22,253 bases of DNA from a virus. Position numbers and translations under genes: made by a program. The stretch spans positions 1 to 22,253 of the IMG/VR virus record IMGVR_UViG_3300027792_000059; one strand, written 5' to 3'. How positions within the stretch are numbered: the stretch's first letter is position 1; every line of letters begins with the position of its first letter. This document shows positions 3,112 through 22,139 of this stretch, in pieces. The notes beneath the pieces were generated by a model. That model had not been told where the DNA came from, ran no database searches, and worked only from the letters and a program-made list of their open reading frames with translations.

Positions 3112-4477
3112 TGTAGAAAAGAGCTTGGAAAAGAGTATAGCGAATCATGATGGATGGGAGAATACAATACAAGGTGTTGGTCAATCCGGGATAGATCCTT
3201 CAAGGAATACACAATTTAATCAAGGCGATTTACTTTGTGAAATTGATGTGCAGGCATTATACACGGATGAAGGGATTGCCGCTCGTATTGTGAATCTTGT
3301 AGTTGAGGACATGTTACGTTCGGGGTTTAAAGTCGCCGTAAAGGATCCCGAAGCCGATGTCTACATACAGAAGCGGTTTGAAGGCTTAAAATTACTGTAT
3401 CACTTAAACCGGTTGTTTTGTTGGGCGAGAGCCTGTGGTGGAGCAGTTATGACTATCGGCTTTAAAGACGGCGAGACTGACTTAAGCAGACCGCTTAACG
3501 AACAAGTGATAAAAGGTATATCTTTCGTAAAGGTATTTGATAGATTTAGAGTGTCAAATATTGTTTACGATAAGAACATTTTATCGGATACATATTTACA
3601 ACCTTTAATGTATACTATTTCACCGTATAATTCATCACCGTTTACTATCCACGCTTCGCGGTGTATTGTCGTTGATGGAGTTGATTGCCTTGACTCGGTT
3701 CGTGTCCAAAATCTGGGGTGGGGTTTAAGCGTATACCAAAATCTGTACGATCCATTAATGCGGATCGGGCGTGTGTTTTGCTCTATCTCTGTAATAGTAG
3801 ACAGCTTTGTTCAGGATGTAATTGGAATTGAAGGTCTCCATGCTTTTATTGCAGCGGGAAAAGAAGACGTAATAAAAAAACGGTTACAGTATATTGATGC
3901 CGGAAAGCACGTTTTGAACTCTATTCTATTAGATAAAAACGAAACGTTTACAAGACAGGTATCCTCTGTGTCGGGTCTTGCCGATCTTATAGACAGGTTC
4001 GGTGGATATATCTCTTCAACAAGCGGCATTCCACAAACATTATTATTCGGGCGTTCTCCAGCGGGTTTGAATGCGACAGGGGACTCCGATACCCGTGGAT
4101 GGTATGATCGTGTGAAGTCGAAACAGGAAACAGATCTGCGACCGGTACTGGAGCGGTTTATTCACCTCTTATTTATTTGTAAAGAAGGGTATAAAAAAGA
4201 ACCTGAAGACTGGTCGATTGAATTTTATCCGTTGATGCAGATGAGTGCTCCTGAAGAAGCGACCTATAGAAAAACGATTGCCGAAACGGATAAACTGTAT
4301 GTTGATAGTCAGGTCGCAACACCTGACGAGGTCGCCTTTACTCGTTTTTCTGGTGGTCGGTATAGTGACGAACCATTGAAAATAGTGTTCAGTGAAAATA
4401 CCGGTAGTCAGGTAAAACAACCCGAATCAAAAGCATTACCAGAGGGCAAGGAAATAGAAGAAGCAGAAAATGAATAA
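3104..4477 (+). CDS. Portal protein (DUF1073 family)
   Basis: The 457-aa protein forms the dodecameric channel at the capsid vertex through which TerL pumps DNA and to which the connector attaches. Family signatures are visible. Near residue 50 is 'DVQALYTDEGIAARIVNLVVEDMLRSGF', the portal 'Y...gla.riVd..a.dm.R.gf' opening. Near residues 305-345 is 'SGIPQTLLFGRSPAGLNATGDSD', then 'WYDRVKSKQETDLRPVLERF', the DUF1073 'LfG.sP.Glnatge.D...yyd.v...Q...l.P.l' segment that covers the wing/stem helices. Length is normal for the family. ATG 3104 follows AGGAG at a good distance. The 3' end overlaps the MuF gene by 8 bases. Confidence 0.88.
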   Translation: MSDVEKSLEKSIANHDGWENTIQGVGQSGIDPSRNTQFNQGDLLCEIDVQALYTDEGIAARIVNLVVEDMLRSGFKVAVKDPEADVYIQKRFEGLKLLYHLNRLFCWARACGGAVMTIGFKDGETDLSRPLNEQVIKGISFVKVFDRFRVSNIVYDKNILSDTYLQPLMYTISPYNSSPFTIHASRCIVVDGVDCLDSVRVQNLGWGLSVYQNLYDPLMRIGRVFCSISVIVDSFVQDVIGIEGLHAFIAAGKEDVIKKRLQYIDAGKHVLNSILLDKNETFTRQVSSVSGLADLIDRFGGYISSTSGIPQTLLFGRSPAGLNATGDSDTRGWYDRVKSKQETDLRPVLERFIHLLFICKEGYKKEPEDWSIEFYPLMQMSAPEEATYRKTIAETDKLYVDSQVATPDEVAFTRFSGGRYSDEPLKIVFSENTGSQVKQPESKALPEGKEIEEAENE

Positions 4478-6179
4478 GTCAAAAGTAAAGCTTCCAAAGG
4501 TTGTTTACCCGTTCGCTTTAGAACGACAGTTATTGACTATTTATTTAACAGTCGTTGAAGATACGATGGTGCTTTTAACCAAGTCAGTACTCCATATATT
4601 CCATGATGCTGGCAGAGATAAGTCAATAAAAGGAATTATAGGAAAAGCGGGTAAAGAGCTTTCCGGGGTAGAAAGAACAGCGAAGGCATGGGATCGGGTT
4701 GAATGGAATAAACTACGGGGTATAATGGCATTACCGAATACAGCGTATGCAAAGCCTCTACAGGACAGGCTTAATAAATTAGTGGAAGATAATATCGGTT
4801 TAATTCAAAGCCTCCCAGAACGACTTATATCCCGACTCGAAACAAAGATAAAAGACCTGCCGACAACTGGTGAGTCACGGGTTACGGTTCAGAAGCTGTT
4901 AAAAGAAACGGGCGAAGTAGGTAAAAGCCGAGCCGAGCTTATTGCACGGGATCAGGTCGGAAAATTAAATGGTGATTTGACAAGGATACGACAGGAGTCC
5001 CTCGGTGGAACAATGTATATATGGAGGACTTCGCAGGATGGTCGGGTTCGTGAAGAACACCAAGCTTTAGATGGTATGGTTTGTAAATGGGAAGACCCTT
5101 CTGTTTATGCAGAAACAGTAGAAAAGGCAATGGCTAATGAGTGGAATAGCCGAGGTGAAATAGGAGGGTATGAGGGGCATCCTGGAGAAGACTATCAGTG
5201 TCGTTGTTCTGCGGAAATGGTAATGGATGACATTTTAGCAGTACCGACAAGTAAAGGCACGGAGGAAGGAACCGAACGTATAAAACGGGAACGGGGTGGA
5301 ATACCTATATCAAGGTTTATTCCAGAGAATAGGTCTGGTACAGTGTTCAGTCGTTCTTTAAAAGGTTTGTCTCCAGAAGAGCAAGACAGGATTAGAGCTT
5401 TACGAGCGGCACGAAAAGCCCGTAAAGCTGGGGTTCTTGTAGAACCGGTTCCCAGACAGAATGCCGCTGTACGTACAGAGCCTGTCGTTAGAGCAGAGCC
5501 TGTTGTTCGTAAATCTGTAGAGGGGTTTGGAGACAAAACCGTATTAAAAAGGTCAGTTACGGATATCAATTATATTAATGTTTATGGTAGATCCTACGAA
5601 CCAGAAACCCGTATAAAAGACAAAGGTATTAGACAACGAAACACTATAAGAGATCGTATTGATGGGATTGTTGATAAGGTTCATAAGCTTCCAAAAGGAG
5701 CGGAAGTAATTGATTTTGCATTCGCTGAATTTCCAGGAGCAACTAATGGGTCGTATACTGCTAAAGTAAATGAAATTCGAGTAACAGTGACGTCACATCT
5801 TGGGAGCGCCAGGCAGACGTTTACTCATGAGTTCGGTCATCATTTACATTCTGAGTTGGATCAATGGAAAGACAATACGGTTTTACAGGCAATTAAAAAA
5901 ACAGAATATTTTAGGAAACTTAAATATCAGATGGATGAAGCCGAGCCTTTGTTCGGGGGAGTAACCGAACAGTATAGACACCTTAAATATTTAGTGGACG
6001 ATCGGGAACTGTTTGCACGAGCGTATTCCCAGTATATCTGGGAGAAGCTTGATGATACAGAAGCGTGCCTCGCTGCACTCAGGAACGGACATAACTATTA
6101 TATTAAAGAAATAGATTTTGCTTCCATACGTAAAGCGTTCGATGAGTACTTTAAAAGTAAAGGCTTAAGCGTGTCTTAA
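4470..6179 (+). CDS. MuF-type minor head protein fused to a C-terminal HEFGHH zinc-metallopeptidase domain
   Basis: Residues about 150-250 form a Phage_Mu_F domain: 'KSRAELIARDQVGKLN', then 'WRTSQDGRVREEHQALDGMV', then 'HPGEDYQCRCSAEM' (C244/C246), the family's rTe..N / W....D.rvR..H..ldG / nCRC order. MuF proteins are minor head proteins next to the portal. The chain continues through a basic, proline-containing linker with short repeats (TEPVVR, AEPVVR, about 325-350). It ends in a domain bearing HEFGHH at 453-458 and a downstream 'DDRELFARAYSQYI' whose E513 is a plausible third zinc ligand, as in gluzincins. At 569 aa it is longer than plain MuF proteins. The known class of MuF polymorphic toxins carries variable C-terminal enzymatic domains, so an effector injected with DNA is possible; capsid processing is an alternative. 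The active-site residues look intact. Confidence 0.85.
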   Translation: MNKSKVKLPKVVYPFALERQLLTIYLTVVEDTMVLLTKSVLHIFHDAGRDKSIKGIIGKAGKELSGVERTAKAWDRVEWNKLRGIMALPNTAYAKPLQDRLNKLVEDNIGLIQSLPERLISRLETKIKDLPTTGESRVTVQKLLKETGEVGKSRAELIARDQVGKLNGDLTRIRQESLGGTMYIWRTSQDGRVREEHQALDGMVCKWEDPSVYAETVEKAMANEWNSRGEIGGYEGHPGEDYQCRCSAEMVMDDILAVPTSKGTEEGTERIKRERGGIPISRFIPENRSGTVFSRSLKGLSPEEQDRIRALRAARKARKAGVLVEPVPRQNAAVRTEPVVRAEPVVRKSVEGFGDKTVLKRSVTDINYINVYGRSYEPETRIKDKGIRQRNTIRDRIDGIVDKVHKLPKGAEVIDFAFAEFPGATNGSYTAKVNEIRVTVTSHLGSARQTFTHEFGHHLHSELDQWKDNTVLQAIKKTEYFRKLKYQMDEAEPLFGGVTEQYRHLKYLVDDRELFARAYSQYIWEKLDDTEACLAALRNGHNYYIKEIDFASIRKAFDEYFKSKGLSVS

Positions 6180-11836: not shown

Positions 11837-12925
11837 ATGAGTAAAGTTGACAGGATTGTACAGGTTACTATTCTCCGGGAATCAAAGCCTATAAGTCAAG
11901 CGGCTTTTGATATGGTTCTTATCCTCGGTGAAAATTTCGAACTTGAAGATGATGCTCGGTATGCTGTTTTTTCAACCGACGATCTCACTGCACTCGCAGC
12001 GGTTCTTGGATCTACTCCGACAGAAAAACCCGAATACCTTGCAGCGGAAGCTATTGCTTCCCAGAGTCCCAGACCGACACAGTTCGCCGTTGGTCGTGTA
12101 GATAGTGAAGATACAGACCATAAAGTGGCGCTCGCTGCTATTATGCTCGAAAACAGTAACTTCTTCTACGTCGTCTGTGCAAGTAGAACTCAAGGTGATC
12201 AGGAGGATACGGCGGACTGGTGTAATGCGAACAGAAGAATATTTATTTCGACAAGTGCTGGAACGGACGGTGATATCCTGGACACAGTAGGTAACGACGA
12301 CAGCTCATTAGCTTTTTACATAAAAGATGGTGCTCTCGATAAAGCTTGTTGTATATATCATGCGAATGCCGCAACAGACTATATTGATGCAGGTCTTTCG
12401 AGTCTTCTTGCAGTTCGTAGACCGGGAACTTATACTCCTATGTTCAAGACAATAGTGGGGTCGGGAGTGGACTCATTAAATTCAACACAGCAAACAAACC
12501 TTTTTGCAAAGTATTGTTCTTCCTATGAATCGGTTGGAGGACAGAACATACTTCAAGAAGGGTGGGTCGGTACTGGAGAATTCCTTGATCTGATTATCTG
12601 GCTGGAGTGGTTAAACTCAAAAATACAGACGAACGTTTACAGTCTATTAGTAAACAATGAAAAGGTTCCGTTTACGTCTGAGGGTCTTGGTCTGCTTGAA
12701 TCTGCTGTTCAACAGGTTCTTGAGATTGAGCAAGCGGCAAAAGCAATCAGTCCCGAGGAGTTTACAGGTAATGTACAGACCGGTGGCTTCTTTACAAGTG
12801 TCCCAAAGATAAGTGAAGTGCTGCAAAACGACAGGCTTCTTAGACTTGCAAAGGATATCAAGTTTACCTGTTGGTATAATAATCCTATCCACCGTGTTCA
12901 AATTAATGGTATTGTCAAAATATAA
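11837..12925 (+). CDS. Contractile tail sheath protein (DUF3383)
   Basis: The 362-aa protein defines this phage as a myovirus. It opens with 'VDRIVQVTILRESKPISQAAFDMVLILGEN' and continues with 'PEYLAAEAIASQSPRPTQFAVGRV', the DUF3383 pattern of an N-terminal strand, then 'fn..lil', then 'y..a...fsQ.P.p..l.vgr'. Later blocks include 'CIYHANAATDYIDAGLSSLLAVRRPGTYTPMFKTIVG' and 'GWVGTGEFLDLIIWLEWLNSKIQTNVYSLLVNNEKVPFTSEGLGLLESAV'. A C-terminal 'VQINGIVKI' strand would complete the inter-subunit handshake. Sheath subunits contract to drive the tube through the envelope. SD is AAAAGGAG. High GC relative to the baseplate genes suggests high expression. Confidence 0.88.
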   Translation: MSKVDRIVQVTILRESKPISQAAFDMVLILGENFELEDDARYAVFSTDDLTALAAVLGSTPTEKPEYLAAEAIASQSPRPTQFAVGRVDSEDTDHKVALAAIMLENSNFFYVVCASRTQGDQEDTADWCNANRRIFISTSAGTDGDILDTVGNDDSSLAFYIKDGALDKACCIYHANAATDYIDAGLSSLLAVRRPGTYTPMFKTIVGSGVDSLNSTQQTNLFAKYCSSYESVGGQNILQEGWVGTGEFLDLIIWLEWLNSKIQTNVYSLLVNNEKVPFTSEGLGLLESAVQQVLEIEQAAKAISPEEFTGNVQTGGFFTSVPKISEVLQNDRLLRLAKDIKFTCWYNNPIHRVQINGIVKI

Positions 12926-14512: not shown

Positions 14513-16084
14513 ATGATTACTGTAAGAGAACTTGTCAATCTGATTGGATTTAAAATTGATGAAGCGGAGTTCGTTTCAGCTCAGAAACGAATGGATGGAT
14601 TTCAACAAAGTCTTTCCAAGACAGGAAAAAAAATGCTCCTTGGTGTTACGCTTCCTTTCGTTGGAATAGTTACAGCGGTTGTGAGAGCGGCATCAAAACA
14701 AGATACAGCTTCCGCTCAAGTTTTTCAGGCAATACAATCAACTGGTGGATCGGCAAAGCGAACACTTGAAGAACTATCCGATATGGCAAACAAGTTTCAG
14801 AAGGAAACTCTTTTTGCTGACGATGACATTTTGGGAGGTGTTTCTGCCACATTATTAACTTTCCAAAATATTTCCGGGGAGGTTTTTGATAGAACTCAAG
14901 AAGCTATTCTTAATGTTACCCAGAGGATGAGCGGAGCGAATGGAGGGATGCAAGCTTTACATGGAACTACACTCCAGTTGGGTAAAGCATTAAATGATCC
15001 ATTAGTCGGTTTACAGGCGCTCGGTCGTGCTGGCATTCAATTTACTGCCGAACAGAAAAAAGAAATAACAAACCTTGTCAAATCTGGGCAATTACAGAAG
15101 GCTCAGATTCTCATGTTGAATTTACTTGATGCAAAGTTTGGAGGAGCGGCAAAAGCTGCTGCCGAAGCTTCTTTTGGTTTTAAACAGTTGGCGAATGCTC
15201 TTGATGACCTTTTGGAACTCATAGGTCAATCATTAAAACCGATTTTAAAACCGTTTACAGAATGGTGTAAAAATTTGATTCGTACTCTTCAAAAGGTAAG
15301 TCCAGAGCTTGTCTCGGCTATTTTTTTTATGGGTGGACTAACAGCGGCAATTGGTCCTTTACTAATAGCTCTTTCATCTTTAATTAAAGCAGGTATGATA
15401 ATTCGTACACTGTTTGTTTCTATTAAAGCAGTTTCTATGGCGACCGGTATTTCAATGGGATTAATGTCTTTGAAGTTTATAGCAATCGCAGCGGCAATCG
15501 CAGCGGTTATTGCAGCTATTACATTACTCGTTGAAGATTTCCTTGTTTACAAAAAGGGTGGAAAAAGCTTTATTGGTGAAATGATTAAATGGTGGGAAAA
15601 ATTAAGTGAAGTAATGGGTATAAAAACCATTGCAAAGGAGTGGAATGATTTCTTTTTTAATCTCGGCGGTTGGTTACATACTTTTATTACAGAAAAGTGG
15701 ATTCCATTCTGGGAAGATGCTGGAGCTGGTTTACATTCGGTTATCCAAAAAATAGGAGAGTGGTGGGATACTATCTGGAGTAAGGTTGGTTGGGGTCTGG
15801 ATAAAATGAAATTAGTTGTGGATGCTTTACAAAAGTTTTCAGATGCTTCTTCTATAAATAATTTTGACCCAGAGCTTGGAGGAAAGAATTTAAGTTTAAT
15901 TAACAGGTTGAATACACCACCTGAAAAGGCAATAAAAATTGATGCGACAATAAATACTTATGTTCCGGAAGGTACAAGTTTACAAGCAACCGAATCAATA
16001 AAAAAGACCGCCGAAGACGTGTATGGCGTAATGATAAAAAAATTAACAAGGCAACTATCCTATAGTGTCCCGATGAGGGAATAA
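14513..16084 (+). CDS. Tail tape measure protein
   Basis: The 523-aa protein has the tape measure layout. The helical N-terminus has 'ELVNLIGFKIDEAEFVSAQKRMDGFQQSLSKTGKKML', followed by a TP901-type core at about residues 60-215 ('AQVFQAIQSTGGSAKRTLEELSDMANKFQKETLFADDDI', 'ALGRAGIQFTAEQKKEITNLVKSGQLQKAQ'). A long hydrophobic stretch at about 264-345 follows ('SAIFFMGGLTAAIGPLLIALSSL', 'IAIAAAIAAVIAAITLLV'), which can insert in the host membrane on injection, and then a W-rich part. At the usual 1.5 angstrom per residue it predicts a tail of about 78 nm, short for a myovirus. It starts 2 bases after the upstream stop and lacks a strong SD. Confidence 0.88.
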   Translation: MITVRELVNLIGFKIDEAEFVSAQKRMDGFQQSLSKTGKKMLLGVTLPFVGIVTAVVRAASKQDTASAQVFQAIQSTGGSAKRTLEELSDMANKFQKETLFADDDILGGVSATLLTFQNISGEVFDRTQEAILNVTQRMSGANGGMQALHGTTLQLGKALNDPLVGLQALGRAGIQFTAEQKKEITNLVKSGQLQKAQILMLNLLDAKFGGAAKAAAEASFGFKQLANALDDLLELIGQSLKPILKPFTEWCKNLIRTLQKVSPELVSAIFFMGGLTAAIGPLLIALSSLIKAGMIIRTLFVSIKAVSMATGISMGLMSLKFIAIAAAIAAVIAAITLLVEDFLVYKKGGKSFIGEMIKWWEKLSEVMGIKTIAKEWNDFFFNLGGWLHTFITEKWIPFWEDAGAGLHSVIQKIGEWWDTIWSKVGWGLDKMKLVVDALQKFSDASSINNFDPELGGKNLSLINRLNTPPEKAIKIDATINTYVPEGTSLQATESIKKTAEDVYGVMIKKLTRQLSYSVPMRE

Positions 16085-16086
16085 TT

Positions 16087-16707
16087 ATGGTAACTGTTTT
16101 TACTACCTTTCAAAATGTAAAGATAGAAGGAATCGAAGTGGACACGGTTCTTTCCGAGACACACAGTTATTCTAATCAAGTCACAGCTTATCCAACCGAA
16201 GGAGACGAACTTTCTACTGATAACGTTCAAAGAAATCCAGAAGAACTGGTAATAGAAGGCATTTCGTCAGATACGCCGATAAGAGAAATTAATTCAGATC
16301 TACAAAAACAAGCGTTATCCAGTGGTAGAGTTCAGGTTGTATTTAACAAACTATTAGAATACGGTGGATTTGAAGTAAATCAATATAATGGAAAAAAGAT
16401 ACTAAATAAAATTCCAAAAGTATTGACAGTCATTACCGGACTAAAAGTCTATACTGATATGATAATTACTCAATTGACAATACCAAGAACGTATGGTTCT
16501 GGACAAGGTTTGACATTTACAGTAACATTTACAAAACTTATAAAAGTCAATACTCAGTTTGTTGCAGGAGTAAATCTTGTATCGGATAAAGCTGGGACTG
16601 GAACACCGGATCAGACTTCCAGTACAACAGATAAAGGACAGCCGGAGAAAACTAAAGTCCCAGGAGAATCTGGATTATATAAAATTACGTTCGGGCTTTT
16701 TGACTAA
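16087..16707 (+). CDS. Dit-like baseplate/tail protein
   Basis: The 206-aa protein starts 3 bases after the tape measure gene. Its first 70 residues follow the Dit-like N-terminal pattern: 'IEVDTVLSETHSYSNQVTAYPTEGDELSTDNVQRNPEELVIEGISSDTP' (i.gi.ld.v..e.h..s..vt.hPve.G..isD.v...P..l.i.g..s). A middle part follows with 'YNGKKILNKIPKVLTVITGLKVYTDMIITQLTIPRTYGSGQGLTFTVTF', the usual '...vkt....Y.nmvi..l..pr....g..l.f.v.f'. A low-complexity Thr/Gly/Pro segment (about 160-190) leads to the C-terminus. Such proteins link tube and hub. An intrinsic terminator follows, so it closes the tail transcript. Confidence 0.7.
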   Translation: MVTVFTTFQNVKIEGIEVDTVLSETHSYSNQVTAYPTEGDELSTDNVQRNPEELVIEGISSDTPIREINSDLQKQALSSGRVQVVFNKLLEYGGFEVNQYNGKKILNKIPKVLTVITGLKVYTDMIITQLTIPRTYGSGQGLTFTVTFTKLIKVNTQFVAGVNLVSDKAGTGTPDQTSSTTDKGQPEKTKVPGESGLYKITFGLFD

Positions 16708-16846: not shown

Positions 16847-17167
16847 ATGTATACAATACCATTCTCAGAAAATGCTTCTTTTTTACAAGAAATTGAACTT
16901 GATTCTATTCTATATAAATTTCATTTCCATTACAATACACGGGAACAAAGCTGGTCTTTTGATATGTTTGATAGAATAGGAACTCCTATACTTTATGGCA
17001 AAAAGATAGTACTCCATTTTAATTTATTAAAGTCATTTACCGGGGATGTCTTTCCAAAAGGTATTATTGCCGCAATTGATACTTCTGGTAATTTAAAATC
17101 CATTGGTAGAAATGATTTTACCAATGGAAGGTTAAGTCTTGTATATATTGAGGAGAATGAACTGTAA
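16847..17167 (+). CDS. Baseplate plug protein (Pam3 gp18-like)
   Basis: The 106-aa beta-rich protein resembles the plug domain described for the baseplate of cyanophage Pam3: 'IPFSENASFLQEIELDSILYKFHFHYNTREQSWSFDMFDRIGTPILYGKKIVL' follows the pattern ip......q.....L.g..y...f.yn.r...W..di.d..g..i..g..lv. The plug sits in the hub channel. There is no SD upstream of ATG 16847 (TAGTTAAAAT), and the candidate promoter places the transcript start at this codon, so leaderless initiation is possible. The stop TAA overlaps the next ATG by one base (TAATG). Confidence 0.7.
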   Translation: MYTIPFSENASFLQEIELDSILYKFHFHYNTREQSWSFDMFDRIGTPILYGKKIVLHFNLLKSFTGDVFPKGIIAAIDTSGNLKSIGRNDFTNGRLSLVYIEENEL

Positions 17168-18066
17168 TGTTTTTTCCAGTGATCAAAGCTGAAATTTCTG
17201 ATATGAATATTAATGGTGGAATAACCACAATCACTGATTTAGCAATGGCATTCACAATTGTTAAAACAGCGGGGAAGGAAGAAAACACATTATCTTTACA
17301 AATATATAACCTTTCAGATACAGTTAAAAATAGAATAACAAAAGAAAATTGTGTAATTGTGTTGAGTGCTGGATATGAAGATGAAAGACCATTACAGATT
17401 ATTTTCAAAGGTGATATATGTTTTACACAGTTTATGGTACAAAAACCAGAACGAATTTTTACTATTGAAGCACTGGATGGAAACAAATTATTAAAAGAAA
17501 CAAAAGTTATTTATTCATTCAAATCTGGAAGTACAGCAAAACAAATCTTATTGTATTTAATTAAAGAACATAATATTAAAATGAGGTCGGATATAAATTT
17601 ACTTCCAATACTGGATAAGCAGTATTTGACTGGTAGTAGTTTTAACGGAACACTCGTAAACGCATTAAATAATATTTGTTCAGACTTAAATTTAAAATGG
17701 TCTATCCAGAACGGGCTTCTTGTATTCTGGGATAAGAAAAGAATAACCAGTAATTTAAAAGGTAGAATTTATTTATCAAAAAATACAGGTTTAATTGGAA
17801 GCCCGAAGGAAATTAAAATAAAGGATGAAGAGGCTTCTACTGCTTCCGAAAGTGAATCAGAAGGTTCAAAAAATACTTTTAGAAATGGATGGGAAGTTAT
17901 AAGTTTATTACAGGCTTCTATCCAGCCTGGAAGTATTGTTCAAATAGCTTCTAATAAATTTACGAAAGATATTACTGTAAAAGTAATTGACGTAAACCAT
18001 AGTGGATCTAATATGCCTGGAGGAGAGAATATAACCAGTTTTACTTCGGAGGTATATAATGAGTAA
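17167..18066 (+). CDS. Baseplate hub protein (gp27/Mu gp44-like)
   Basis: The 299-aa protein lies between plug and spike, where the hub is expected. The N-terminal part has 'ITDLAMAFTIVKTAGKEENTLSLQIYNLSDTVKNRIT', the hub pattern 'l.i.f.v.k......n...i.iyNls..t...l'. It continues with 'GDICFTQF' and 'RIFTIEALDGNKLLKETKVIYSF', 'SGSTAKQILLYLIKEHNI' and 'FNGTLVNALNNICSDLNLKWSIQNGLLVFWDK'. These match the hub domains that form a trimeric ring continuing the tube. An Asp/Glu/Ser-rich stretch (EEASTASESESEGS, about residues 220-233) breaks the C-terminal half. The 3' end overlaps the spike gene by 8 bases. Confidence 0.75.
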   Translation: MFFPVIKAEISDMNINGGITTITDLAMAFTIVKTAGKEENTLSLQIYNLSDTVKNRITKENCVIVLSAGYEDERPLQIIFKGDICFTQFMVQKPERIFTIEALDGNKLLKETKVIYSFKSGSTAKQILLYLIKEHNIKMRSDINLLPILDKQYLTGSSFNGTLVNALNNICSDLNLKWSIQNGLLVFWDKKRITSNLKGRIYLSKNTGLIGSPKEIKIKDEEASTASESESEGSKNTFRNGWEVISLLQASIQPGSIVQIASNKFTKDITVKVIDVNHSGSNMPGGENITSFTSEVYNE

Positions 18067-18766
18067 CTCCGGTGAATTTATTAAAGTAATTGAAAATATT
18101 ATTCTAAATATAATCAATAGTTGTGTTCATACTTGTCTACCAGGTAAAATACTTTCCTATGATTCAGTAACTCGAAAAGCAACAGTTCAACCGTTAATAA
18201 AAAAGAAATATCTGGATGGATCAACTGCAAGTTATAAACCAATTGAAGCAGTCCCAGTGTTATCTTTCAGTATTGGAAATAGTGGTATGAGGTTACCTGA
18301 AAGTCAATTTAAAAATAAATCGGTTTTATTAATTGTTCCAGAGCGATCCATAGACACGTGGCTCGTAGGTAATGGCAAAGAAGCAGTTCCACAGTCAAAT
18401 AGAAAGTTTGATATATCAGATTGCATTGCAATTATTTCTTTAAATACCTTTTCTAATAAAGACTCTGGAGGTAATAATTTAGAAATTTATTTCAACGATA
18501 GTTTAATAAGGATAAAACCGAATGGCAACATTGAGCTTGGAATAGATACTTTTAAAAAATTGATAAATGAAAGTTTCGCAGATTTATTTAATAACCATGT
18601 TCATAATATTGCAGCGGATCCAACAACCCATGCAGGAATAACGTCGAGTCCTTCCGTATTGGTCGGAACTGTTGGTGTACGAGTTCCAGCGGTTCCCGCT
18701 TTAGTAAACGTGTTCAACAATGATTTAGGAAGTACTCACATGACTTCAAAAGTAAAGGCGGAATAG
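18059..18766 (+). CDS. Baseplate spike protein (Gp138 N-terminal family)
   Basis: The 235-aa protein has the Gp138-type OB domain at about residues 25-110: 'CLPGKILSYDSVTRKATVQPLIKK', 'PIEAVPVLSF', 'SVLLIVPERSIDTWL'. A beta-helical region follows ('LEIYFNDSLIRIKPNGNIELG'), then a His-rich tip, 'FNNHVHNIAADPTTHAG'. It ends in 'VNVFNNDLGSTHMTSKVKAE', the usual C-terminus of these spikes. As a trimer it is the piercing needle. HVHN and the following H may bind a metal at the tip, as seen in other phage spikes. Start at ATG 18059 with SD GGAGG. It abuts the next ATG directly after its TAG. Confidence 0.8.
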   Translation: MSNSGEFIKVIENIILNIINSCVHTCLPGKILSYDSVTRKATVQPLIKKKYLDGSTASYKPIEAVPVLSFSIGNSGMRLPESQFKNKSVLLIVPERSIDTWLVGNGKEAVPQSNRKFDISDCIAIISLNTFSNKDSGGNNLEIYFNDSLIRIKPNGNIELGIDTFKKLINESFADLFNNHVHNIAADPTTHAGITSSPSVLVGTVGVRVPAVPALVNVFNNDLGSTHMTSKVKAE

Positions 18767-19180
18767 ATGCATACAATAGATGATTATACTGATAGAATCG
18801 GTGGGGTATTTGAAACACCTATTTTATGTCAGAAGGGTATTTTGCAAGCTTCTTGCTTTACAGACTATTCCGGAGGAGAGGTACTAACTTATAGTGTATA
18901 TTTTAAATTTCAAGCTATTGCAGGAAAAAAGTATACTATAGGTATCGAATCAGGTGAAACACTTTCTAATTTTTTCTTTTTAAATATTGCAATGGCTATA
19001 TGGAAACCAAGCGATATTGGAGAAGCTTCAACATACTTTAGTGATAACGATGAAGTATCACCTCCGATTTTACCTTATGATTATATACTCACTGGAGGAG
19101 CACGTATTCAATTTACAGCGGAAGAGACCGGTGAATATATATTAGCAATATTTGGTTTTAAAGAAGGTGGTCCGAAATGA
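18767..19180 (+). CDS. Small beta-sandwich protein of the baseplate locus, unknown
   Basis: This 137-aa protein is not recognised as a known baseplate component. The pattern 'YSVYFKFQAIAGKKYTIGIESGE' (about 43-65) and C-terminal 'ARIQFTAEETGEYILAIFGFKEGG' resemble PPC-like/carbohydrate-binding beta-sandwich domains (v.f.a.aG..Yti.i ... i.fta..tGeY.l.i). There is no signal peptide, so it is not exported by the usual route and is probably virion-associated. The start is the codon directly after the spike stop. The last 4 bases (ATGA) overlap the propeller-gp25 gene, so the two are co-translated. A role in ligand or host-surface binding is inferred. Confidence 0.6.
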   Translation: MHTIDDYTDRIGGVFETPILCQKGILQASCFTDYSGGEVLTYSVYFKFQAIAGKKYTIGIESGETLSNFFFLNIAMAIWKPSDIGEASTYFSDNDEVSPPILPYDYILTGGARIQFTAEETGEYILAIFGFKEGGPK

Positions 19181-20679
19181 TAACATTAAAGCAATTAAAT
19201 GAAATAATTAGGGATGATTATGGTTTATTTATATGGTGTGATACTGTTAATTTACTTGCTTTTATAATTGACGGTGGAGACCATAAGATACGTAGTTATC
19301 GTTATAATGCTGCCGGTGAGTTAAGTTATTTATCAGTATCGGAAGCGGTTGGGACTTCTTCTCCATTAGTTTTGACAGGTGATGCATCCTCAATGATATT
19401 ATTTGCGGGTGCTTATAGAATAAAAATGTTTACTTATGACTCCGAGGGTATAATAACTTATAGGGTACAGGAATCAAACGCTTCAAGAAGTACAAGAGGG
19501 TCAAGTCCATTTATAACTCTTGATACAACAAATAAGATAATGTTCTGTAATGATTATAATAATCCAACTCCAGGAGCAAAAACATTAATTTCGTATCGTT
19601 ATGATCCAGTTGGTTATTCCCTTACCGCTCTTGACACGGAGGGGACTAATATTTCTGGGATGGTATGGTGTGACCCTGTTAATATGCTTGTCTTTGCACT
19701 ATCTGATGTCACCGGTGGAAACTACACAATAAATTCTTATGCTTATACTATTGATGGATTACTTACATATAAGTCAACGACTTTAATAACAGGCGCATAT
19801 CAAATATGGGGAATAACTGGAGATGGCGGTTGTAGAACAATATTCATCCGTTTACTGGATAATAATAAACCGCGAGCAATAGTTTATGAAACTGACGGTA
19901 CAATGCGACAAGCGACTACATCAATTTATGAAGATACATATTCAAAATCAATTTTATTTACAAAAAGTACCGATAGCGGTTCATGGGTAATGTCAACCGG
20001 TACTATATTTGATATTTTTAAATTTAATGCGGAGGCGGAAACTATTGAGTTAAACAATAGTTTTACTCCGGAGGGGGAAGGTGATATTTCTGTTGATTGT
20101 TTCTTTTTTGATTTTACATTAAATTTATTATTCGTAATATCTTCTAATGGAGAATATAAAGTAACTGTTCTTTTAGCCAGGGATTATGATTTTGGATTTC
20201 ATATTTTAGAAGAAGAAGGTGAGCCAGTACCGGTTCCGGTTCTACGAACAAGTTCCAGAATGAGTTTACAGGTAACCTTTAAAGTACAATCTAAATATGG
20301 TGCTTTGGTTCTTACCGAACAAATTACAATACCTCCACTGGGAACGGTTCAAGAAGAAGAAGCAAAGAATTATTATAATAAAGAAAAAACTGATCCATGT
20401 GATTTACGTCTTGGATCAACCCATGATTTACTAATAGTTAATAATGATTTTGATATTGTTTATAACATTGATAAGGTTCGACAGAATTTAAAAATAAGAT
20501 TGCAAAGCTTTATAAATGACTGGTTCCTGGACATTAGAGACGGGATAAATTTTTATGGCATTGTCTTTGTAAAGGAACCAGATATGAATCTTATTGACGG
20601 TGTTATAAAAACAGTGATAATGGAAACAGATGATATTATTGAAATCCTTGAATATAATTCTCAATTACAAAGAATTTAA
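19177..20679 (+). CDS. Beta-propeller domain fused to gp25-like baseplate wedge protein
   Basis: The 500-aa protein has two parts. Residues about 395-500 are the gp25/DUF2634 wedge domain: 'DLRLGSTHDLLIVNNDFDIVYNIDKVRQNLKIRLQSFINDWFLDIRDGINFYG', matching Dl.....dl....dd..lv.g...v.q.i..rL.t..GEwf.d...Gi.y. Wedge proteins of this family are normally about 110-150 aa. The first 345 residues form about seven 42-48-residue repeats (starting near 16, 62, 110, 160, 206, 253 and 300). The unit is a strand, D...N, a hydrophobic strand, 'I.SY.Y...G.L.Y.S', as in 'WCDTVNLLAF...IRSYRYNAAGELSYLS' and 'WCDPVNMLVF...INSYAYTIDGLLTYKS'. This is a beta-propeller signature. A proline linker (EEEGEPVPVPVLR, about 346-358) joins them. 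The propeller could bind receptor or sugar at the baseplate rim. Confidence 0.75.
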   Translation: MITLKQLNEIIRDDYGLFIWCDTVNLLAFIIDGGDHKIRSYRYNAAGELSYLSVSEAVGTSSPLVLTGDASSMILFAGAYRIKMFTYDSEGIITYRVQESNASRSTRGSSPFITLDTTNKIMFCNDYNNPTPGAKTLISYRYDPVGYSLTALDTEGTNISGMVWCDPVNMLVFALSDVTGGNYTINSYAYTIDGLLTYKSTTLITGAYQIWGITGDGGCRTIFIRLLDNNKPRAIVYETDGTMRQATTSIYEDTYSKSILFTKSTDSGSWVMSTGTIFDIFKFNAEAETIELNNSFTPEGEGDISVDCFFFDFTLNLLFVISSNGEYKVTVLLARDYDFGFHILEEEGEPVPVPVLRTSSRMSLQVTFKVQSKYGALVLTEQITIPPLGTVQEEEAKNYYNKEKTDPCDLRLGSTHDLLIVNNDFDIVYNIDKVRQNLKIRLQSFINDWFLDIRDGINFYGIVFVKEPDMNLIDGVIKTVIMETDDIIEILEYNSQLQRI

Positions 20680-20693
20680 CTTAGGAAGGTTAT

Positions 20694-22139
20694 ATGATTT
20701 ACGGATTAACAACAGAAGGCTTCAACCAAAAAAGATTCCCAGAAATTGAACAAGAGCTTAAAGATAGTTCGATTGTTCAATTTCCAAATATTTTAACTAC
20801 GCCGGGGTCGGTCAATGGTGTATTGTTAAGTATATTTTCAAAACCTATTACTGATATATGGGAAGCCCTCGGTGCTTTATATCATGCATTGCATCCATCT
20901 GAAGCGGAAGGAATTAATTTAGATTATATTGCAGAATATAAAGGCATTACTCGTCTGGAAGCTTTGTCAACGGTTACTGAAATTCTGCTGTCCGGCAGTT
21001 CCGGAACGGTTATCCCAGCGGGGTCAACACTGTTTAAGTCAACAGTAAATAATTCTATTCATGAGCTTACCGAACAAGTTACTTTATCTAATGATTTACA
21101 AGAAGCGGTTGTTACAGTTCCAGAGGTTATAGTCGATGATGATTATACAATTACAATAGATGAACATGAATATACATATACAGCGCAAGAAGGTGATTCT
21201 ATTGCGGATATTATATCTGGGTTAATTGGTGAAATAACTGACTTTGCGGAGGCAACTATTGACGCTGAAGCGTATGGTTCGGGTTGTAAAGTTATAGCAA
21301 AGAATAATTTCTTTACAATAGGAGTAACAGAAAATCTTATTCTTTGGAATATAGGTCACTCTAAATCTATTGTTCTGGATGCAATTGCAGTTACCGAAGG
21401 AGATATTACGGAGATAGAAACACCGGTGACTGGACTTGATTTTGTTAATAATCTTCTTGCTGGTATTCCTGGAAGGAAAGCAGAATCCGACACCGAATTA
21501 AGGATACGGTTTGCCGAAGCCTTGACTTCTGGTGGTGGCGGTTCTTTAAGTTCAATCTGTGCTGAACTGTTAGATAAAGTTGATTCAGTTATCTTTGCGA
21601 AAGGGTATGAAAATCGTACTTCTGCAGAAGTAGATGGACGTCCGCCACACTCGTTTGAAATAGTAGTTTCAGGAGGTAATGAAAATGAAATAGCACAAAA
21701 GATATGGGATTTGAAGCCCGCTGGAATACAGACTGTTGGAAATACAGAAGTAGATATTACTGATTCAAACGGTGATGAACAGAAGGTTTGCTTTTCTGTA
21801 CCCGAAAGTAAATATGTATGGTTTAAAATAACATTGACAAAGTATACCGATGACGGGGTATATCCATCAAACGGGGATGCTATGATTAAAGCTGGTATTA
21901 TTGATCAGGGAGCAGGTATTGGTATAGGGATGGATGTCATACCCGATAAGTTTAAAGGTTCTATTTTTTATTCGAGTCCTGGAGTATCTATACCGGGGAT
22001 TGCAGGAGCGGTCGTAGAAGCAGCGGTAAGTGATGACCCACAAGAAGAACCTGAAAGTTTTTCAACAGGTCGAATTGAAATTGCAGAAAATGAAGTTGCT
22101 TTATTTGATAACGATCGAATAGAAATTATTGAAGCATAA
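20694..22139 (+). CDS. Baseplate J-like protein (Mu gp47 / T4 gp6 type)
   Basis: The 481-aa wedge protein has the Baseplate_J features: the N-terminal 'GLTTEGFNQKRFPEIEQELKDS', 'GSVNGVLLSIFSKPITDIWEALGALYHALHPSEAEGINLDYIAEYKGITRLEA', and 'SGSSGTVIPAGSTLF'. Then come 'VTGLDFVNNLLAGIPGRKAESDTELRIRFAEALTSGGGGSLSSI' (about 245-290) and 'PPHSFEIVVSGGNENEIAQKIWDLKPAGIQTVG'. Residues about 147-222 are an inserted strand-helix-strand module (YTITIDEHEYTYT, GDSIADIISGLIGEI) like that in the cement protein. J proteins form the ring around the hub that transmits the contraction signal. SD AGGAAGG. No coding sequence follows to the window end. Confidence 0.85.
   Translation: MIYGLTTEGFNQKRFPEIEQELKDSSIVQFPNILTTPGSVNGVLLSIFSKPITDIWEALGALYHALHPSEAEGINLDYIAEYKGITRLEALSTVTEILLSGSSGTVIPAGSTLFKSTVNNSIHELTEQVTLSNDLQEAVVTVPEVIVDDDYTITIDEHEYTYTAQEGDSIADIISGLIGEITDFAEATIDAEAYGSGCKVIAKNNFFTIGVTENLILWNIGHSKSIVLDAIAVTEGDITEIETPVTGLDFVNNLLAGIPGRKAESDTELRIRFAEALTSGGGGSLSSICAELLDKVDSVIFAKGYENRTSAEVDGRPPHSFEIVVSGGNENEIAQKIWDLKPAGIQTVGNTEVDITDSNGDEQKVCFSVPESKYVWFKITLTKYTDDGVYPSNGDAMIKAGIIDQGAGIGIGMDVIPDKFKGSIFYSSPGVSIPGIAGAVVEAAVSDDPQEEPESFSTGRIEIAENEVALFDNDRIEIIEA

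Follow-up and report, generated by a model that had tools for sequence, protein, structure and literature searches.

Why should a sheath initiator, which belongs to the smallest and most conserved parts of contractile machines (myophages, pyocins, extracellular injection systems, type VI TssE), bear an additional domain of 345 residues? The window analysed here, an entire IMG/VR virus record of metagenomic origin (22,253 bases), holds an open frame for a 500-aa protein between the genes for the baseplate spike and for baseplate wedge J, the place expected for a gp25-like sheath initiator in the tail operon. The tail genes follow the order Dit-plug-hub-spike-X-J, as they do in reference phages where X encodes an initiator standing alone (116-128 aa). 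The tail region contains:

11837-12925: sheath (phrog_205)
14513-16084: tape measure
16087-16707: Dit-like protein
16847-17167, + strand: baseplate plug, Pam3 gp18-like (PF22479, E 1e-18)
17167-18066, + strand: baseplate hub (E217_GP41, E 3e-10; phrog_196, E 4e-54)
18059-18766, + strand: baseplate spike, gpV-like, upstream edge of the cassette (PF18352, E 2e-16; 76% identical in the sister phage)
18606-20265, + strand: exchangeable cassette, without DNA homology to the sister phage from the end of the spike gene to codon 364 (blastn, two contigs)
18767-19180, + strand: 137-aa cassette protein, weakly PPC beta-sandwich-like (PF04151, E 0.12, below cut-off)
19177-20679, + strand: sheath initiator with a predicted N-terminal propeller, apparently permuted, 500 aa (one open frame; domain matches)
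20694-22139, + strand: baseplate wedge J (phrog_6, E 1.5e-46)

Elsewhere in the window, a Mu F-like head protein (4470-6179) has an HEFGHH motif of the zinc metalloprotease type in its C-terminal part and a weak LPD1 match, and is possibly an injected polyvalent protein.

Identity and layout of the 500-residue protein

The original prediction, made from the DNA alone, proposed that a beta-propeller is fused to a gp25-type baseplate wedge protein in one ORF, and this has held. The frame (19177-20679) is uninterrupted, its start, at which it shares four bases with the end of the 137-aa gene ahead (the stop codon included), has a plausible ribosome-binding site in front of it (GAAGGTGG), and GC content differs little between the N- and C-terminal parts of the gene. 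Residues 409-497 match phrog_120 ('baseplate wedge subunit', E 1.8e-9), and the core matches the PDB sheath initiators gp87 (9zd7, E 2e-10) and Pam3 gp21 (7yfz, E 3e-5), all initiator matches of the ORF being confined to residues ~409-497. By these comparisons the protein is a gp25-like sheath initiator, albeit an apparently permuted variant rather than an ordinary member. Initiators of this family are hexameric, and in A-1(L) and XM1 the initiator ring attaches both to the first sheath ring and to the wedges, that of XM1 remaining with the sheath after contraction (PMC10966104; PMC10457771). In phage 7-7-1, the N-terminal domain of the sheath is received by the corresponding wedge 1 (PMC12796354). 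By analogy, the 500-aa protein would form a hexamer that touches the first sheath ring.

A scan with the terminase recovered a sister contig (IMGVR_UViG_3300031746_000184, L021; terminase 83% identical), as well as a near-identical contig (L002) that ends before the baseplate. In the sister, the initiator ORF encodes 495 aa; its last 155 residues share 75% identity with those of the protein studied here, and its first ~340 residues show no similarity to the N-terminal domain of the latter. Since this independent contig has the same order of linker, hairpin and core on another N-terminal domain, comparison of the two rules out an assembly error as the source of the fusion. The parts of the protein are as follows:

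19177-20211, + strand: residues 1-345, probable lactonase-like beta-propeller (self-alignment, repeat HMM, lactonase HMM, hhalign)
20212-20253, + strand: residues 346-359, Glu/Pro-Val linker EEGEPVPVPVLRTS (PVPVP also in the sister phage; weakest constraint)
20254-20337, + strand: residues 360-387, putative displaced C-terminal initiator hairpin SRMSLQVTFKVQSKYGALVLTEQITIPP, which completes canonical initiator profiles if put after the core
20338-20397, + strand: residues 388-407, predicted new linker from hairpin to core (alignment with the sister phage and canonical initiators)
20398-20676, + strand: residues 408-500, sheath initiator core (phrog_120, PDB 9zd7/7yfz), which stops 3 aa past the last conserved core position

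Selection differs along the C-terminal part, with pN/pS values of 0.16 for the core, 0.35 for the hairpin segment and 0.73 for the Pro-Val linker (residues 346-362). Of the region that had been taken as a Pro/Glu linker (residues 346-406), the description fits residues 346-359, but the remainder also includes what appears to be the displaced hairpin. This circular permutation, along with the module exchange described below, had been missed.

Order of hairpin and core

When aligned with canonical initiators, this protein and its sister stop where the others continue into a hairpin of the form R-x-x-x-x-F-x-V-x-T-x-x-G, and the stretch that matches this hairpin, RMSLQVTFKVQSKYGALVLTEQITI, is located N-terminal to the core. 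In 73 of 73 stand-alone initiators compared, 24-42 aa follow the core, versus 3 aa in this protein and in the sister. The C-terminal beta-hairpin after the core, a feature of family members, is absent here and a hairpin-like segment is found N-terminal to the core instead; the hairpin cannot lie downstream, because J begins 14 bases after the initiator stop. The initiator appears to be circularly permuted, with the hairpin moved ahead of the core and a linker of ~20 residues joining the two. Such an order could plausibly have arisen if the initiator gene was duplicated in tandem and the first core and last hairpin were then lost.

The permutation was first spotted by eye in the alignment and then tested, so that the tests are post hoc, with the same segment winning in both proteins. 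On an HMM of 11 initiators, the core alone scores 83.5 bits and the core with residues 360-395 appended 97.3 bits (+13.8); for the sister, joining the core and the hairpin stretch raises the score from 90.1 to 102.0 bits (+11.9). None of 1000 shuffles and none of 1479 background segments, taken from other proteins of the window, did as well. On an HMM of 73 initiators, re-ordering gains 13.7 bits here and 14.1 bits in the sister, with shuffles peaking at 6.7 and 10.1 bits (none of 1000 equals the gain here). These values fall inside the range of the gains that true C-terminal hairpins confer in a leave-one-out comparison of the 73 initiators (6-29 bits, median 21). Likewise, when segments of 36 aa are slid along each protein, the hairpin stretch scores best in both. 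The phrog_120 score rises from 43.5 to 56.1 bits here and from 56.4 to 67.2 bits in the sister upon re-ordering, the match being extended from profile position 150 to 177. There are only two permuted sequences and their C-terminal parts are 75% identical, so that they count as about one event.

It could be argued that no permutation occurred, the C-terminal hairpin having merely been lost and residues 360-387 being a beta-hairpin that belongs to the linker and has no relation to it. It is indeed a short segment, beta-hairpins are widespread, and some background segments joined to this core do reach up to +7 bits on the 11-initiator HMM. However, no shuffle or background segment equals the gain from re-ordering, the same segment is the best in both proteins, purifying selection acts on it, and the hairpin is present in every stand-alone relative compared, all of which makes simple loss very unlikely. 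We find it scarcely credible that the single frame yields two products, full-length protein and a short initiator started near Met362, such that only some copies carry the propeller: while an in-frame ATG does stand directly before the hairpin in this gene, the sister phage has no ATG at that place, and a good ribosome-binding site was not found ahead of the internal ATG of this gene.

The N-terminal domain

The repeats that had been noticed in residues 1-345 are real, as the best internal self-alignment of the domain scores 108, compared with a maximum of 60 among 100 shuffles. About seven repeats of 44-51 aa can be placed. A leave-one-out repeat profile recovers repeats 1-4 (residues 15-60, 61-104, 108-156 and 159-206; none of 1000 shuffles did as well), repeat 5 (207-254) is weak and not recovered, and repeats 6 and 7 (255-300 and 301-345) were assigned by eye only. 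Against an HMM built from nine lactonases, the domain obtains 15.0 bits, versus at most 2.6 bits for shuffles (251 reported), 3.4 bits for the reversed domain and 5.2 bits for the Asp-box propeller of the sister, the reported other proteins of the window being negative. Comparison with lactonases by hhalign gives 37% over residues 4-348, with controls at or below 0.3%, and of the five weak matches (E 0.08-0.2) returned by a search of 7.3 Gb of plasmid DNA, three were to 6-phosphogluconolactonase genes. The domain on its own has no match in Pfam, nor in any phage record. A scan with tandem consensus sequences depends on the consensus used, as a hand-made one matched the Pfam Lactonase family and an automatic one did not.

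Because AlphaFold failed on the full-length protein (pLDDT 32; 28 for the sister), the fold assignment rests on sequence. In the low-confidence model (pLDDT 32), the strands in residues 15-98 form two groups of four, and its Foldseek matches are mostly propellers, at TM scores under 0.25. Altogether, it is well supported by sequence that residues 1-345 best fit a seven-bladed beta-propeller of the lactonase type; the propeller fold that had been proposed is thus backed by profile comparison, with 6-phosphogluconolactonases as the nearest weak matches, but not by a confident model.

Many Gly, Leu and Asp scaffold positions of the lactonases are retained, while H130, H180, E195, R248 and R278, invariant in the nine lactonases, are missing from the domain in the alignment. 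It is conceivable that the propeller is an enzyme, a lactonase-like hydrolase or another, that modifies the host surface or signals, as its closest weak relatives would suggest; yet the absence of these conserved His, Arg and Glu residues, with only two His left in the whole domain, renders this highly improbable. A binding role is favoured over an enzymatic one because the conserved polar residues are missing.

Module exchange, function and known systems

DNA homology between this contig and the sister breaks off at ~18605, close to where the spike gene ends, and returns at 20266, which is codon 364, while neighbouring baseplate and tail proteins of the sister are 74-81% identical. Within these borders, one phage has a PPC-like gene and a propeller and the other a two-ORF Asp-box propeller and an unassigned domain, the latter without a match in Pfam, the PDB or phages. 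The Asp-box (BNR/sortilin-type) propeller of the sister spans two ORFs of the same frame, with stops between them (L021 6681-7412, 7422-7691), and is a second, distinct propeller at this site. A third phage (IMGVR_UViG_3300028653_000053, L103) has a non-permuted 473-aa initiator with an N-terminal beta-helix (PF13229, E 4e-5, just under the curated cut-off) and a terminase 47% identical to that of this phage, so that each of the three related phages has a different N-terminal domain. Judged by these comparisons, the propeller together with the small gene preceding it makes up a cassette that is swapped whole among related phages, an accessory module exchanged as a unit, while hairpin and core stay conserved. 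The search for the same fusion elsewhere, which had been suggested, has led to a sister in which linker, hairpin and core follow an unrelated N-terminal domain. Directly after J, the sister encodes a beta-rich protein, perhaps a beta-helix (L021 10682-11755), at a position mostly taken in reference phages by gpI/DUF2612 or other structural genes. The contigs of this phage, the sister and L103 all end soon after J, which may reflect a hypervariable stretch that breaks assembly.

How common are such fusions? A stand-alone initiator of 116-128 aa occupies this place in 10 of 11 reference phages read, the exception being Rheinheimera phage Barba1A (441 aa, initiator first, then ~320 aa). The gene concerned, gp114 (L029 3423-4748), encodes a gp25-type initiator that is not annotated as such, with an Ig/fn3-like C-terminal extension of ~320 aa, and is matched by 115 Rheinheimera phage records. 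Among the best 80 of at least 509 viral initiator loci, intact loci are nearly all 115-132 aa, longer frames have N-terminal extensions that are short or doubtful (L039, L090, L095, L088), and fusions are evident in L078/L081 (459 aa, C-terminal) and in L103 (N-terminal). Beyond these 80, there may be additional permuted members. In L078 (39-869, 2304-3683), the C-terminal extension of the initiator and an upstream tail gene share the linker VVRLLAGACSTRSEGAATL, as if a linker of surface domains had been copied from one baseplate gene to another. The whole protein, J and the C-terminal alignment, scanned against viral_contigs and genome_contigs, returned nothing or the sister contig alone, and a survey of prophages with phrog_120 (249 genomes, six matches) found no large fusion. 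In the open-access literature, we found no paper that pairs circular permutation with sheath initiators, an absence that is not proof of novelty, and no propeller/initiator fusion of this type. The claim that no such fusion had been described thus stands for the literature searched, but gp25-type fusions do exist unannotated in sequence records (Barba phages, L078/L081, L103).

What could such a domain be for? We think it rather probable that the protein is a permuted hexameric initiator that would couple the contractile sheath to the baseplate wedges, and whose freed N-terminus bears the seven-bladed lactonase-like propeller through the Pro-Val linker as an exchangeable accessory adhesion domain. 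By homology with hexameric initiators, six propellers on flexible linkers would ring the upper baseplate. The ring of propellers originally envisaged thus keeps its multi-copy display, but would be sited at the sheath-baseplate junction instead of the tail tip. There, the propeller would act as a non-enzymatic binder of a host surface glycan or another exposed ligand beside the main tail fibres, and perhaps benefit adsorption. Exchange that requires no change in the neighbouring tail genes is the hallmark of surface modules, for example the carbohydrate-binding modules found in lactococcal phages, of which two bind host cells (PMC6669499), and beta-propeller lectins occur on fibres of related injection systems (PMC12923769). 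K8 GP075 (PMC9887876) was considered as a precedent for a receptor-binding wedge protein and set aside, being a different wedge protein (DUF2612). Alternatively, the N-terminal domain may be structural, bracing the baseplate periphery, shielding the junction or standing in for a missing peripheral wedge protein. Indeed, sheath initiators occupy a mechanically loaded junction (PMC10457771), and with a beta-rich gene and no obvious gpI/DUF2612 wedge following J in the sister, the baseplate may differ in its construction. However, a part fitted to its neighbours should not be replaced by an unrelated domain in a phage with such similar neighbouring proteins, and reference phages manage without any such domain, so that we regard a structural role as unlikely. 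As to the adhesion reading, it is tempting, if rather speculative, to propose that the permutation turned a buried assembly protein into a plug-in scaffold. With the free end ahead of the hairpin, an entire cassette of surface domains could be swapped on the 5' side of the two conserved pieces, which would give this group of phages a swappable recognition ring of six copies at the junction of sheath and baseplate that is independent of the tail fibres.

Accessory domains on tail proteins are already known, and it is the permutation that is surprising. Pam3 gp21 (7yfz), gp87 (9zd7), XM1 gp15 and A-1(L) gp30 resemble this protein in the sequence of the core, in being encoded between spike and J and, by homology, in the hexameric coupling of sheath and wedges, but have 115-130 aa, a C-terminal hairpin and no extra domain, whereas here hairpin and core are apparently permuted and a 345-aa domain lies ahead. 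The L103 initiator is alike in its N-terminal display-type domain of ~320 aa, Pro-rich linker and operon position, but has a beta-helix in place of a propeller and is not permuted. The initiators of Barba gp114 and L078/L081 likewise carry a large extra domain, but at the C-terminus (~320-340 aa, weak Ig/fn3- or PKD-like signals) and without permutation. With the Lactonase family (PF10282; E. coli Pgl), the domain shares weak profile similarity and the repeat pattern, but lacks the conserved polar residues and by itself falls below Pfam detection. A natural permuted initiator that tolerates 345 aa of cargo would mean that the ring can be rewired and used for domain display, offering a natural site at which domains could be attached to contractile particles, and the case points to host-recognition parts hidden in proteins annotated merely as 'baseplate wedge'. 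The modules of lactococcal 936 phages (PMC6669499), from which a host-binding role is suggested here by analogy, are likewise exchangeable surface domains on virion structural proteins, but they sit on the neck, major tail protein and Dit of siphophages, whereas here the module sits on the sheath initiator of a contractile tail.
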